This document shows, piece by piece, positions 10,623 to 16,043 of a stretch of 64,000 nt of DNA. The notes under the pieces are model-generated. The model was not told where the DNA came from and made no database searches. It worked only from the letters and a program-made list of their open reading frames with translations. The stretch covers positions 248,001 to 312,000 of the forward strand of contig CCSI01000002.1 of the NCBI GenBank assembly GCA_000756795.1. Direction: 5' to 3'. The number at the start of each line of letters is the position of its first letter. Position 1 is the first letter of the stretch. The DNA comes from Qipengyuania vulgaris (GTDB taxonomy: Bacteria > Pseudomonadota > Alphaproteobacteria > Sphingomonadales > Sphingomonadaceae). A program made the translations under genes and the position numbers.

Positions 10623-11120
10623 TTAGCGGTAGCGCATGCGGATGGAGATGTTCTTCACCCCGCTGCCGACATCGAATCCCACCTTCTTGTAGCTCGGCTT
10701 GCCGAGGTTGAAGATGTTGATGCTCGGGTCGTTCGACATCGCGCCGCCGTCTCCGAAAATGTCGGTCTTGCCGTCGCCATCGAGGTCGTGGCGCACAGCG
10801 ATGCCGTAATGGCCCGGTGCGGGGAGCGGCATGCAGAACCGCATGGTGCCGGCCTTGGCGGGCGCTTCCATGCGGTAAATCCAGCGGCCCTTCTCGAGCC
10901 AGTCCTGCTTCGTCGCACGATAGGACTGGATGCGGATGGTGCCCTTGCTTTCCTTCACATCGGTAATCGAAACCATGACGGCAGGCCCCTTGCCTGCCGA
11001 ACACTTGCCCGGGTCGTGCGCGATCTTCTCGCGATACTGTGCCTCTGCGGGCGAGCTCATGGCAAGTCCCGTAAGGGCAAGCGCGGCGGTTCCGGTGATG
11101 GCTGCGAGTTTGCTGGTCAT
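10623..11120 (-). CDS. DUF2141 domain exported protein
   Basis: A 165-residue protein with a signal peptide (cut near AEAQY) and a DUF2141 domain, a beta-rich fold of unknown function in exported proteobacterial proteins. Visible family features: IRIQSYRATKQDWLEKG, FCMPLPAPGHYGIAVRHDLD, and a calcium-like DGDGKTD loop followed by GGAMSNDP. It is convergent with the preceding gene, ending four bases from its stop, and stands alone. Confidence 0.85.
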   Translation of the reverse strand: MTSKLAAITGTAALALTGLAMSSPAEAQYREKIAHDPGKCSAGKGPAVMVSITDVKESKGTIRIQSYRATKQDWLEKGRWIYRMEAPAKAGTMRFCMPLPAPGHYGIAVRHDLDGDGKTDIFGDGGAMSNDPSINIFNLGKPSYKKVGFDVGSGVKNISIRMRYR

Positions 11121-11244: not shown

Positions 11245-12924
11245 TCAGTCGCCTGCGAGCCGGCCCTTGTCGAGGCGGATGACGCGGTCGGCGATATCGG
11301 GGAGCAGCCCCCTGTGCGCGATTGCAATTACGGTGCGCGTCTCGGTCATCGCATGAAGCGCGGCGGCGATGGCCTGCTCGCTGGCGGTGTCGATCGCGCT
11401 GGTCGCCTCGTCGAGGATGATGAGGTCGGGGTCGAGCATCAAAGCACGAGCTAGGGCAATGCGCTGCCGTTCACCGCCAGAAAGCGCACGGCCACCCTCG
11501 CCGAGGTCGCAATCCATGCCTTCGGGAAGCGAGTGGACAAAAGTTGCCGAGGCCTCTTCCAACGCGTGCCTCATCTGGTCATCGTCCGCTTCCGGAGCGG
11601 CCCAGAGAAGGTTGTCGCGCACGCTGCCCGAGAACAGCACCGGTTCCTGCTGCACATAGGCGACGCGCGCGCGCCACGCGCGTCGGTTGGCGGGCGTTAT
11701 TTTAGTTTCATCGATGAGCATGCTCCCCGCATCGGGTGCGATGAGCCCGGCAGCAATGTCGGCCAGCGTGCTCTTGCCGGAGCCCGAGGGGCCTGTGAGG
11801 ACAGTCAACTGCCGTGCCTTGATAGTGAGGTCGATCGGGCCCAGCGCGGGACGCTCGCCGCGGTGGAATAGCGAAACGCCCTCCAGAACTATGGACCTCG
11901 CCAGCGACACTGCCGGACCTTGCGCGTCGTCTTCGCGGTGCTCGCCAGCCGTGCGGATGGTGGCGAGCGCCTCTTCCAATGCAGGCAATTCGTGGCTCCA
12001 GCCCTGCCAGCTCGCCTGCAGTTCGGAGAGCAGCGGCAGGGCGCGAACGAAAATCGCGGCAAGCGGCAGGAGGATCGGCAGTGGCATTTCAAGCCCGCCG
12101 AGTGCGAGCCAAGCGAACCCGGCAGCGACCATTGCCGCACCCAAATGCAACGCTGCGTGACCGAGTGCGCTGTCGCGGACATAGGCACGTTCAGTCTGGC
12201 GCAGGCCTGCAAGGTCGCGTTCTACCTCGTGGGAGGTGCGGTCCTCGCGCCCGTAGCTCTTGATGACGCGCAGCGCGCCGAGAGTTTCGCCCAATTGCGA
12301 ATGGAGCCTGTCGTGCCTGCGCGACAAGGCCTCGCCGAGCTGGCGCGCACGGCGGCGCAATGGGGTGAAGAAAAGGAGGATGAGTGCGGAGGCTGCCGCT
12401 CCCGTCAGGGCCGCAGCAGGCGAAATAGCCAGCGCAGCCAGCCCAAGGGCGACGAGGCCAAGCACCAGCCGCACGAGCTGCGCGACCAGTTCGACGCCAT
12501 AACCTGCGCGGTCGATATTGGTGATGAGCAGCGCCTCGCTCTCGCCTTGGCGCAAGCCCGATAGCCAGCGCCAGCGGGCATGCAGCAGGCTGTCGACTGC
12601 TTGCATCCTGAGGCCATCGACCACAGCCACCTGCAGGTCCTGCGCGGCAAGGCGGCGTGCTACCTCGGCCACCGAACGCAGCATGACAAGCGCGACGAAT
12701 AGGACAAGCAGCGCGCCAAGCGGCAGCTGCGGCAGGGTAAGGCCGAAGGGAAGCGATATTTGGGTACCACCGGCATGCGCGAGCAGCGGCACGAGCAGAA
12801 CGAAGCCCAGCCCCTCGGTCGCGGCGGACACGAGCGAGAGGAAGATCAGCCAGCCGGTGGCCTTCCTCCCGGCAATGACCGCCAGCGCGCCGAAACCGCC
12901 CATTGTTTCGCGCCGCCTCCCCAT
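11245..12924 (-). CDS. RiPP-cluster ABC exporter, fused permease-ATPase
   Basis: A 559-residue half-transporter with six N-terminal membrane helices (to about residue 300) and a C-terminal ATPase: Walker A GPSGSGKST, signature LSGGERQRI, Walker B LIILDEATSAID. There is no N-terminal C39 peptidase domain, so it would export but not cut the leader. Its start shares one base with the cyclase stop (TGATG at 12926-12922), placing it as the last gene of the RiPP operon; the role matches the D protein of lasso clusters. Specific cargo is inferred from position. Confidence 0.85.
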   Translation of the reverse strand: MGRRRETMGGFGALAVIAGRKATGWLIFLSLVSAATEGLGFVLLVPLLAHAGGTQISLPFGLTLPQLPLGALLVLFVALVMLRSVAEVARRLAAQDLQVAVVDGLRMQAVDSLLHARWRWLSGLRQGESEALLITNIDRAGYGVELVAQLVRLVLGLVALGLAALAISPAAALTGAAASALILLFFTPLRRRARQLGEALSRRHDRLHSQLGETLGALRVIKSYGREDRTSHEVERDLAGLRQTERAYVRDSALGHAALHLGAAMVAAGFAWLALGGLEMPLPILLPLAAIFVRALPLLSELQASWQGWSHELPALEEALATIRTAGEHREDDAQGPAVSLARSIVLEGVSLFHRGERPALGPIDLTIKARQLTVLTGPSGSGKSTLADIAAGLIAPDAGSMLIDETKITPANRRAWRARVAYVQQEPVLFSGSVRDNLLWAAPEADDDQMRHALEEASATFVHSLPEGMDCDLGEGGRALSGGERQRIALARALMLDPDLIILDEATSAIDTASEQAIAAALHAMTETRTVIAIAHRGLLPDIADRVIRLDKGRLAGD

Positions 12925-14777
12925 CAGAAATCGTTCCTTTTCTCGGTATGCGAAACGAAAATCGCGGTGGTGAAAGCGCGGGTCAGGCCCACTTCGCGTG
13001 GCAGGCGTTTGCGGGGGTCGCGCGGGGTTTTCGCTGGCCAGTCGCGCAAAAGCTCCTGCATCCTGTCGATGTCGAGGATGGCGGAAAGCTGCGGATGCGC
13101 ACGCATGGCTTCTGCCTGTGCAAGCAGTTCGGTGCGTCTTGCCGACAGGCGCGCGTGCCAGTCGACATTGTGACGGCCCTGTCGGACCTCGGTGCGCTGC
13201 GCTTCGGGCATGAGACCCCTTGCCATACGCCGCGCCAGATAGCGATCCTTGCCCGGGCGTCGCAGTTGGTCGGTCGGGAGGCCGTGGCAGAATTCAAACA
13301 GCGGACGGTATGCAGTCACATCGCGGTGCGCCATGCCGTAGAGCCGCTCCATCCCGAGGTCTAAATCCTCCCCGCTGTCGGCGCTGGCCCACATCGCCCT
13401 GATGGCTTGCTCGCGCGACGCAGGGATGGGCGGTGACTCGAAAGACGACACCGACCCGCGCGCATCCGACTTCTTGCGCCACTTCGCGCCCGCCTCGGCC
13501 GACAGCAGCGAGGATAATGGAATGTCGCCGAATCGCTCTGGATGGACGCGCTTGCGGATGGCGCGCTGGAGCCGCGAGGGCAGGTGCGGAAGAACAGCCA
13601 TCGACAGGATACGCCGGGGCAATGCGTGCTCGGGTTCCTCCGCGGCGGCGAGCTTGACGAGCCGCGCGAGGCGGCCCTTGCGCAATGCTTCGGGTGCAGC
13701 CCAGTCGCCATCGAGGCTGATTGTGAAATTGCCGTGCAAGGCGGTCAGCATGGCGTCGCAGCCTTGCGCCTTGGCCGCCTCGAACAGCGGGTGGAAAATG
13801 CCGGTATTCGCGATGTTCGCGGTCGGCACTTCGGTGCGCGCGAGCAGTTCGCGCAAGGCATAGTCGTGCCCGCCGCGCTCTTCGGGAAAATGCGGCTCGA
13901 GACGCGGATGCATGGCGGCAAAGCGGCGCACCATTTCACGCTCCTCGCCAAATCCGCTTTCCGGCTCCCACCCGTCCCAGTCGGGATGCGGTCCGAAGGT
14001 GAAGCTCGGCAGGCGCTGGTCCTCGGGCAGGTGTTTCGAAACTGCGAGCGCGGCCAATGGACTGTCGAGCCCGCCCGACAGCATGATCGCAGGGTTCTTC
14101 AGGCCCGCGACACAGGCACCTGCCGCCTCGTCGAGCAATTCGAGCCCCCGCTCGACATATGCCTCGTCGCTCGCCAGTTCGACCGGCTCAACCGCCAGCG
14201 GGTCGTAATAGCGGTCCAGCTTCCAGTCCGCGCCATCGATAATGACCCGGCTTCCGAGTGGGACCCGCCCGATGCCTTCGTACCAGCCGACCGGCTCGCA
14301 ATCGTGATGATCGAAGGCCAGCTGGTCAGCAAGGTATGTCCAGTCGATATTGCGCGGCGCGCCGGCTGCGAAGATTGCCCCGAGCAGGGGCGATGCCGCG
14401 ACAATTTCGCGCGATGTGAAGAAATGCAAGGGCGGCGCGGTCCACGGGGACCTCACCAGACGAAGCCCGCGCGGACCGGTGACGGTTATCGCGCAATAAT
14501 GACCCACCAGCCTGTGGTCGGTATCCTCGCCCCATCGTCTCAGCGCGGCGTCATAGAGTGCTGCTGCGGGAATATCGTCAGAAAGGTCAAGGCTGCGGCT
14601 GATGTCCTGCGCATTGTCGATACGTCCGAAAAGGACCGTTCGCCCGCCCTTGTTTCCGCCTCCCCAGACATCGAAATCATGAACCGATGCGGGATGGGGC
14701 GCATAACCGACTGCATTGCCAATCGCAGCGCGCGCAGGGGAAGGCATTCCGCCCGCGCACCATGCCGCAGCGATCAT
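12924..14777 (-). CDS. Asparagine-synthetase-like RiPP cyclase (lasso C-type)
   Basis: A 617-residue AsnB-family protein. The C-terminal synthetase domain has the ATP pyrophosphatase loop SGGLDS at residues 234-239; this domain adenylates a carboxylate in lasso cyclases and asparagine synthetase. The N-terminal glutaminase-like domain lacks the catalytic cysteine right after Met (it begins MIAAAWC), so ammonia is not expected to be made from glutamine, as in lasso C proteins. The 48-residue precursor ends 13 bases upstream and the exporter overlaps downstream. The expected chemistry is activation of a carboxylate on the precursor, yet the precursor core has no Asp or Glu, so the C-terminus or Asp29 are the only candidates. 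Length is normal for the family. Confidence 0.85.
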   Translation of the reverse strand: MIAAAWCAGGMPSPARAAIGNAVGYAPHPASVHDFDVWGGGNKGGRTVLFGRIDNAQDISRSLDLSDDIPAAALYDAALRRWGEDTDHRLVGHYCAITVTGPRGLRLVRSPWTAPPLHFFTSREIVAASPLLGAIFAAGAPRNIDWTYLADQLAFDHHDCEPVGWYEGIGRVPLGSRVIIDGADWKLDRYYDPLAVEPVELASDEAYVERGLELLDEAAGACVAGLKNPAIMLSGGLDSPLAALAVSKHLPEDQRLPSFTFGPHPDWDGWEPESGFGEEREMVRRFAAMHPRLEPHFPEERGGHDYALRELLARTEVPTANIANTGIFHPLFEAAKAQGCDAMLTALHGNFTISLDGDWAAPEALRKGRLARLVKLAAAEEPEHALPRRILSMAVLPHLPSRLQRAIRKRVHPERFGDIPLSSLLSAEAGAKWRKKSDARGSVSSFESPPIPASREQAIRAMWASADSGEDLDLGMERLYGMAHRDVTAYRPLFEFCHGLPTDQLRRPGKDRYLARRMARGLMPEAQRTEVRQGRHNVDWHARLSARRTELLAQAEAMRAHPQLSAILDIDRMQELLRDWPAKTPRDPRKRLPREVGLTRAFTTAIFVSHTEKRNDF

Positions 14778-14790
14778 GCGAAATACGCGC

Positions 14791-14937
14791 TCAGGATCGA
14801 GCGCGCGCGTTCGGTCCGGACTGCAGGCCCGAACCGCGCGGTCCAGCGATGTCGCGCATGGTGCCGAGCTTCACGAGCTGCGGCTTCTCCCAGCGCCGCT
14901 TGCCTGCCTTGGCGACCTGTTCGTTCTTGCTCATCAT
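14791..14937 (-). CDS. Lasso-like RiPP precursor peptide
   Basis: A 48-residue peptide starting MMSKNEQ, with an aagga ribosome site upstream; the second Met at 14934 is also possible. The leader has W16-x2-P19-x-L21-x3-G25, matching the Y/WxxPxLxxxG box by which lasso leaders bind the PqqD-type recognition protein. The normally conserved Thr at leader position -2 is Ala31 here. After it comes a Gly/Pro/Ser/Arg-rich tail (GPRGSGLQSGPNARARS) with no Asp, Glu or Cys; the last acidic residue is Asp29. It lies between the PqqD gene (24 bases away) and the cyclase gene. Leader and context support a RiPP precursor; the final product type is unknown. Confidence 0.8.
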   Translation of the reverse strand: MMSKNEQVAKAGKRRWEKPQLVKLGTMRDIAGPRGSGLQSGPNARARS

Positions 14938-14961
14938 CAAATTCCTTCGGCAGCAACCTTA

Positions 14962-15234
14962 TCAAACCGTCGCCTCTGCCACCAGTGCCGCATCGCGAAA
15001 ATCGGCAAGCAAGGCGCTAACATCCTTAGCGATGACTGCCTCGTCGCCCTCGTAACCGCACGCCATCAACTCGGTGATGGCGTCCTCGTCGCGCTTGCCA
15101 TCGATGGCCTCCCACACTGCCTTGGCCGTCCCGGTCAGCGAGAACAATTCGCCGCCGTCGAGATCGACGATGAGCAGTTCGTCGTCGACTTCGGTGGCGA
15201 TGAAATTGTCAGTCAGCTTGCGGATTGCACCCAT
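14962..15234 (-). CDS. PqqD-family RiPP recognition element protein (lasso B1-type)
   Basis: A 90-residue PqqD-fold protein, starting MGAIRKLTDNF at 15234 with an aggag ribosome site eight bases upstream; the ATG-like start at 15270 lacks one. Visible family pattern: LLIVDLDGGELFSLTGTAKAVWEAIDG followed by a helical C-terminus, typical of the RRE that binds leader peptides. It is the first gene of the operon PqqD - precursor - cyclase - exporter. No fused or separate transglutaminase-like B2 protease is found between here and rpe. Confidence 0.88.
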   Translation of the reverse strand: MGAIRKLTDNFIATEVDDELLIVDLDGGELFSLTGTAKAVWEAIDGKRDEDAITELMACGYEGDEAVIAKDVSALLADFRDAALVAEATV

Positions 15235-15380: not shown

Positions 15381-16043
15381 ATGACCGTCCCGCTGATTTC
15401 TCCCAGTATCCTTTCCGCCGATTTTGCCCGGCTGGGCGAGGAAGTCCGCGCTGTCGACGAGGCGGGGGCCGACTGGATCCATATCGACGTGATGGACGGG
15501 CATTACGTGCCCAACATCACCATCGGGCCGGCGGTCGTGAAAGCGCTGCGCCCGCACACCACCAAGACCTTCGACGTGCATCTGATGATTGCGCCGGTCG
15601 ACCCCTATCTCGAGGCATTCGCCGAGGCCGGGGCGGACATAATTACGGTCCATCCCGAGGCAGGGCCGCATATCCACCGCACTCTGCAGGCCATCAAGAA
15701 TTTGGGCAAGAAAGCGGGCGTGGTGCTCAATCCCGGCACGCCTGCGAAGATGCTCGATTATCTCATCGAGGAAGTCGACCTCGTGCTGGTGATGAGCGTC
15801 AATCCCGGTTTCGGCGGACAGAGCTTCATCCATTCGCAGCTGCGCAAGGTCGAAGCCATCCGCAAGATGATCGACAAGACCGGCAAGGACATCCGCCTTG
15901 AAGTCGATGGCGGGGTCGACCCGACCACCGCGCCGCTCTGCGTGGATGCTGGCGCCGATGTGCTGGTAGCCGGTTCTGCCACCTTCCGTGGCGGACCTGA
16001 AAAGTACGCGAGCAATATCGCCGCGCTCAAGGGGCTGGGATGA
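15381..16043 (+). CDS. rpe: Ribulose-phosphate 3-epimerase
   Basis: Interconverts ribulose 5-phosphate and xylulose 5-phosphate in the pentose phosphate pathway (cytosol). The sequence is a full TIM barrel: SPSILSADF at the start, [14 protein letters not shown] with the metal ligands, [17 protein letters not shown] and EVDGGV. The start at 15381 (MTVPLISPS) gives 220 residues, the usual length; an upstream GTG at 15318 is open but adds atypical residues. It overlaps the heparinase-like gene by four bases (ATGA), so the two are coupled. Confidence 0.95.

Follow-up and report, generated by a model that had tools for sequence, protein, structure and literature searches.

In lasso peptides, the ring closes on an Asp or Glu at core position 7-9, and precursor predictors apply this rule. 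In the described pathway of BsfA from Bradymonas, the B2 protease cuts two residues after an Ile at leader position -2, Ile(-2) thus being accepted, and the same account notes in silico precursors with Ile or Val at this position from Acidobacteriaceae and Sphingomonadales, the latter of which may include relatives of the family analyzed here (PMC10368454). We analyzed a stretch of 64,000 nucleotides (the window) from the marine bacterium Qipengyuania vulgaris (contig CCSI01000002.1, positions 248,001 to 312,000), which carries on its minus strand, at 11245-15234, a unit for a ribosomally synthesized and post-translationally modified peptide (RiPP) with the order B1 (a PqqD-fold protein with the RiPP recognition element, RRE), precursor A, cyclase C, and ATP-binding cassette (ABC) exporter D. 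The predicted core, GPRGSGLQSGPNARARS, has no Asp or Glu, at positions 7-9 or elsewhere, and has Gln at position 8, and no B2 is encoded in the unit.

We propose a two-locus lasso-like RiPP pathway whose ring would be joined on the side-chain carboxamide of Gln8 (Asn9), a reading to which we give a probability of about 0.5. In this pathway, B1 would bind the WxxPxL leader and hand the precursor over to B2, a cysteine protease whose gene lies on another contig; cleavage by B2 after RDIA would leave G1 as the N-terminus. The ATP-dependent cyclase would then link the G1 amine to the carboxamide in the side chain of Gln8 (in three relatives, of Asn9), and the product would leave through the exporter. 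Judging from the sequences, a lasso-like product is most likely, in which the acid is replaced by a side-chain amide; we infer both the role of Gln8 as ring partner and the threading. We do not file the product as a lasso peptide because an acid at positions 7-9 was looked for and is absent; the pathway would work like a lasso pathway.

Precursor core and ring column

The RRE and the [Y/W]xxPxL leader motif of lasso pathways are both present, and the leader has Ile at position -2 in place of Thr. By analogy with BsfA, as described in PMC10368454, the core would start at G1 after RDIA, the leader being one residue shorter than that of BsfA between the aromatic residue and position -2. Three precursors of relatives (L239, L242, and L247; L denotes loci and G genomes) have Thr(-2) at the same spacing from the leader Trp and Asp in the ring column (Asp8), and the presence of Asp at exactly this offset supports the register.

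Precursors were collected with a pattern combining the leader motif with Ile or Val at W+14 or W+15 and leaving position 8 unconstrained. The tabulated set comprises 76 cyclase loci, 68 of which contributed 69 precursors in total, 59 with the leader spacing of the window and 10 with one more residue. In the 59, Ile/Val(-2) is universal by selection, since the pattern required it, and the ring column contains Q8 (48), Q9 (2), N9 (3), E8 (2), D8 (1), or D9 (3). Gln is thus conserved in the column that holds an acid in some relatives, and 36 of the 59 cores, including that of the window, have no Asp or Glu at all. Position 8 shows the lowest entropy among core positions 1-12 (1.24 bits, against 1.46 for position 1 and 2.1-3.4 for the others). 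The ten precursors with the longer spacing have D8 (7), D9 (2), or Q8 (1); with the same pattern, 20 loci taken up later yielded 11 precursors (Q8 5, D8 5, E8 1). The Asp at -3, found in 56/59, is an unlikely ring residue, since acid types keep it beside the acid at position 8.

Eight loci of the first set had no usable precursor (L080, L096, L113, L126, L128, L130, L131, L132); six false rows were removed, and the precursors of L079, L188, and L189 were added by hand. In the 20-locus set, nine loci had no precursor and seven rows were set aside by eye as chance frames. Precursors on the strand opposite to the cyclase come from L124 and L127 (spacing 15) and, in the 20-locus set, from L237 and L244. 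The three Thr(-2) precursors and two misfits discussed below came from a search that did not demand Ile/Val.

Some variants were also observed. L120, L129, and L198, all from the genus of the window, have neither Gln nor an acid at position 8 and have Asn at position 9. Some Gln-type cores (L097, L099, L104, L232) contain two Cys residues, which could form a disulfide. L085 (G015) has two tandem precursors before one cyclase, both Q8 with different cores. The residue before the last of the core is Arg or Lys in 40/59; the window unit has no kinase gene.

Remote B2 protease

The absence of B2 between rpe and position 11245, pointed out in a preliminary description of this DNA, holds: no open reading frame (ORF) of B2 size with a B2 match lies between the neighboring DUF2141 gene and rpe. 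The genome-wide search for B2 that the same description called for (2.86 Mb, 11 contigs) gave a single PF13471 match, a 145-residue protein on contig 8 with 64.7 bits, which scores 69.7 bits against NCBIfam lasso_biosyn_B2 (NF033537; cut-off 33). This B2 is an orphan gene flanked by those of a DUF326 protein and an acyl-CoA dehydrogenase, with neither B1 nor cyclase in its flanks. Its Cys80 and His115 are kept in 83/83 B2 rows (one B2 counted twice). The genome contains one PqqD match (B1, at E 0.001), one cyclase match, and one B2. The DUF326 protein, which is Cys-rich, is encoded just upstream of B2 (L002:10176-10574, minus strand) and stands beside B2 in many, not all, genomes of the genus.

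Among 60 genomes of the genus, 23 have the unit, and B2 lies beside the acyl-CoA dehydrogenase gene (within about 1.5 kb) in 23/23 of these, versus 6/37 without the unit (Fisher 2e-11, uncorrected for relatedness, related genomes not being independent). Any B2 occurs in 21 of the 37, these six included. Two of the six (G438 and G435) keep relics of the unit and one (G420) has only an 86-residue B2 frame. Between rpe and DUF2141, G438 retains a B1 start and an exporter piece (L254) and G435 exporter pieces only (L255), the remote B2 still being there in both. In a family sample of 397 genomes, B2 is found in 77/77 with a cyclase, including clusters with their own B2, versus 110/320 without, and 25/25 genomes with no B2 close to the cyclase (or with one only about 7.5 kb off, G135) have B2 elsewhere. 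The orphan B2s of Qipengyuania group with those of some other genera in a single clade (support 0.997), with acyl-CoA dehydrogenase flanks in 28/32 members. In three genomes of another genus (G002, G158, G096), the remote B2 adjoins another B1 and a cyclase, and may therefore serve a second lasso cluster there.

Relatives with a linked B2 show the order B1-B2-A-C-D, and those without it B1-A-C-D, unlinked meaning no B2 within 1.5 kb of the cyclase (L075 has one about 7.5 kb downstream). Of the 86 cyclase places in the family sample, 60 + 4 besides the window were taken up. Among 52 loci besides the window whose precursors have Gln or Asn in the ring column (amide types), rpe lies within 2.2 kb of the cyclase in 49, from 11 genera; within 1.5 kb of the cyclase, B2 is lacking in 37 of these and present in 12. 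The preliminary description had asked for a comparison of this kind. Relatives from other genera have B1-B2-A-C-D at this site near rpe; between B1 and A, where their B2 lies, the unit here either lost a gene or never had one. We consider it most likely that B2 moved out of the cluster, as the homologous cluster at this site holds it in other genera. The loss of B2 does not explain the Gln core, since 12 Q8 and one Q9 precursors with the same leader have B2 within 1.5 kb of the cyclase. Of 36 unit-less genomes of the genus in which rpe was found, 31 have DUF2141 in the rpe flank and two have pieces of the unit. Outside the family, an order sample of 396 genomes gave only weak matches to amide-type units (best E 4.4e-26), whose precursors were not read.

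Taken from gene content, the missing B2 is most likely the gene at the second locus, and its action on this precursor is what we infer. One of the two options of the preliminary description, leader removal by an enzyme from elsewhere in the genome, gains from this single remote B2 and its co-occurrence with the unit; the retained leader that it mentioned as a possibility along with the other option found no support, and we dropped a missing protease or a retained leader as the lead reading on the same grounds. That description had also named a B2 elsewhere with matched phylogeny as one of the findings that would overturn it: presence and absence do match, the branching order does not.

Cyclase and alternative routes

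The cyclase belongs to the Asn synthetase family (Pfam Asn_synthase, 45.7 bits), as lasso cyclases do, and keeps the ATP loop and the fold; its score against the NCBIfam lasso cyclase NF033535, 64 bits, is far below the cut-off of 525. A PDB sequence search with this single protein gave 0 matches. The closest solved folds to its model are those of the hydroxyamidotransferase TsnB9 (7ylz) and beta-lactam synthetase (1m1z), with 15 and 17% identity, respectively, and no peptide cyclase is among the 50 listed structure matches. The cyclase could activate the amide of Gln8 or Asn9 with ATP, for attack by the N-terminal amine; the outcome would be a lactam if ammonia is lost, or a macrocyclic amidine if water is lost. 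We advance this chemistry, which may be new, tentatively, at somewhat less than even odds. Calculated masses for the predicted core are 1666.861 Da when linear, 1649.835 Da as lactam (-17.027), and 1648.851 Da as amidine (-18.011). A precedent is PesC, an Asn-synthetase-like RiPP enzyme whose ATP-dependent conversion of an amide to a nitrile is proposed to proceed via an adenylated amide (PMC13060819, preprint, in the part available to us).

Several observations weigh against closure on Gln8 as such. In 13 of the 48 Q8 cores, Asp or Glu is found at position 7 or 9 as well, and a normal ring could form there in place of one on Gln8; the other 35 could not form one. Two candidate precursors are out of register, their ring column holding Ala (L228) and Gly (L238). 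The acid types E8 (L100, L240, L103) and D8 (L112) have close amide-type relatives, which also fits the best of the alternatives, although we hold it to be unlikely: either the pathway itself or an enzyme encoded outside the cluster would first deamidate Gln8 (or Asn9) to Glu or Asp, after which a normal lasso lactam would form. Such neighbors are what interchangeability of Gln and Glu or Asp would give. In a cyclase tree with 79 labelled members (58 amide and 21 acid types), we count at least five changes between amide and acid, compared to a mean of 18.8 and a lowest value of 15 in 300 label shuffles; L103 and L112 group with amide types, L100 and L240 pair, with L100 next to two Q8 types, and the Q8 pair L119 and L235 lies among Asp types. 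This pattern is an argument for Gln substituting for the acid at a single site, and says nothing on whether Gln is used as such.

Against deamidation, the unit contains no further gene between DUF2141 and rpe (a deamidase elsewhere was not searched for), and the glutaminase-like half of the cyclase lacks the Cys of an active one. An active class II glutamine amidotransferase half has Cys at position 2; in the cyclases, Cys occurs in 0/63 aligned rows of the residue-2 column, so that this half does not appear to be an active glutaminase and we rejected it as the deamidating enzyme. Direct use of the amide, as lactam or amidine, and prior deamidation give the same picture in sequence, and since the final lactam of deamidation equals that of direct transamidation, only intermediates or labels separate these two.

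We also looked for a single residue setting amide or acid. Column 536 (G-x-[H/Q]-x-x-D-W) is suggestive, and confounded by phylogeny: His is found in 48/58 amide types, and Gln in 17/21 acid types and 1/58 amide types. Exceptions are Asp in L119 and L235, His in L100 and L103, Pro in L112, and a gap in L240. As the profile match to solved structures ends before this column, we claim no catalytic role for it.

A slightly less probable alternative is that no ring forms at position 8 and the Asn-synthetase-like enzyme acts elsewhere, for example on the C-terminal carboxylate, the product not being a lasso. The last core residue, Ser in 57/59 and Thr in 2/59, is indeed more conserved than Gln8, and Asn-synthetase-like RiPP enzymes that amidate or convert the C-terminus to a nitrile are reported (PMC13060819, preprint, as far as its text was available). 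Nevertheless, relatives have Asp or Glu in the position-8 column, which varies less than any other among core positions 1-12, and B1, B2, the leader motif, and the order of the genes all match lasso pathways. The earlier suggestion of a product other than a lasso thus survives on different ground from that first given, namely a core without Asp/Glu and with Gln in the ring column.

That the remote B2 is unrelated, the leader being cut off by a different protease, lost during export, or kept, is improbable: full-length B2 genes at the site without unit or relics near rpe (G405, G445, G399) and a B2 branching order that does not follow unit type speak for it, against the co-occurrence described above, the place of B2 inside the homologous cluster of other genera, its invariant Cys and His, and an exporter without a peptidase domain. 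Matched B2 and cyclase trees were not found, the B2 of G333 grouping with the B2s of G354, G407, and G411 and the cyclases of these three genomes belonging to another clade, so that unit types look exchangeable over a resident B2.

Locus and comparison with known systems

The features of the locus are listed in Table 1. The operon of the preliminary description is borne out by the ORFs and Pfam matches, including gaps of 24 and 13 bases and one overlap, a single base (12924) shared by the cyclase stop and the exporter start. Its statement on the exporter also stands, Peptidase_C39 being absent among the best 25 of 26 Pfam rows. The four-gene unit is not a chance arrangement, as the same genes recur in the same order within 2.2 kb of rpe in relatives. 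A promoter and terminator scan of the locus remained at chance level. The three relatives in named genomes found by protein search come from Qipengyuania sphaerica, Q. vesicularis, and Q. aquimaris.

Table 1 Features of the four-gene unit and its neighbors (window positions).
Feature	Position	Strand	Remarks
B1, discrete RRE (PqqD-fold) protein, 90 aa	14962..15234	-	Pfam PqqD, 54.6 bits
Precursor peptide A, 48 aa from ATG	14791..14937	-	Leader motif WEKPQL, then RDIA; homologous precursors upstream of cyclase in relatives
Predicted core GPRGSGLQSGPNARARS	14794..14844	-	Boundary predicted from Ile(-2); Asp/Glu absent
Gln8 codon	14821..14823	-	Column is Asp or Glu in acid-type relatives
C, lasso-type cyclase, Asn-synthetase family, 617 aa	12924..14777	-	SGGLDS ATP loop kept
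D, ABC exporter, 559 aa	11245..12924	-	ABC_membrane and ABC_tran; without C39 peptidase
rpe, adjoins unit; site marker, outside pathway	15381..16043	+	
DUF2141 protein, downstream neighbor	10623..11120	-	Adjoins rpe in most unit-less genomes of the genus

If the ring does close on an amide residue (Gln or Asn), Asp or Glu would no longer be a general requirement of lasso rings, and this peptide cyclase would be one that activates an amide in place of an acid. With the unit near rpe in at least 11 genera, searches demanding Asp/Glu at 7-9 would miss such pathways, and in that case a set of them within one bacterial family may have escaped predictors built on this rule. The protease can be supplied from a second locus, and the remote B2 suggests that a complete cluster is not a good criterion for whether a lasso pathway works. 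A search of open-licence PMC articles, by title or start of abstract, gave no Gln/Asn-closed lasso or remote lasso B2, which does not imply absence from print.

The unit shares with BsfA discrete B1, B2, and C proteins, the [Y/W]xxPxL leader, Ile/Val(-2), and a Gly1 start, but BsfA, in the part of the account available, has a predicted closure on Asp8 and a clustered B2 and kinase (PMC10368454), whereas here we find Gln8, a remote B2, and no kinase in the unit. PesC, the nitrilobacillin nitrile synthetase, likewise belongs to the Asn-synthetase-like RiPP enzymes and has an amide as the substrate of an ATP-dependent step; in contrast, its site is the C-terminus of the peptide and its product a nitrile, with no B1/B2 context in the portion available (PMC13060819, preprint). 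RiPPs with unclustered leader proteases also have a protease encoded outside the cluster, but the examples in the passages available to us are lanthipeptides, microcin B17, and the like, and do not involve a lasso B2 (PMC8960859, PMC10885120). Compared to canonical split-B lasso clusters (A, B1, B2, C, D), finally, the protein families and the exporter are the same, and the B2-linked Gln-type relatives even show B1-B2-A-C-D, whereas the window core has no Asp/Glu at 7-9 and B2 occupies another locus in this genus.

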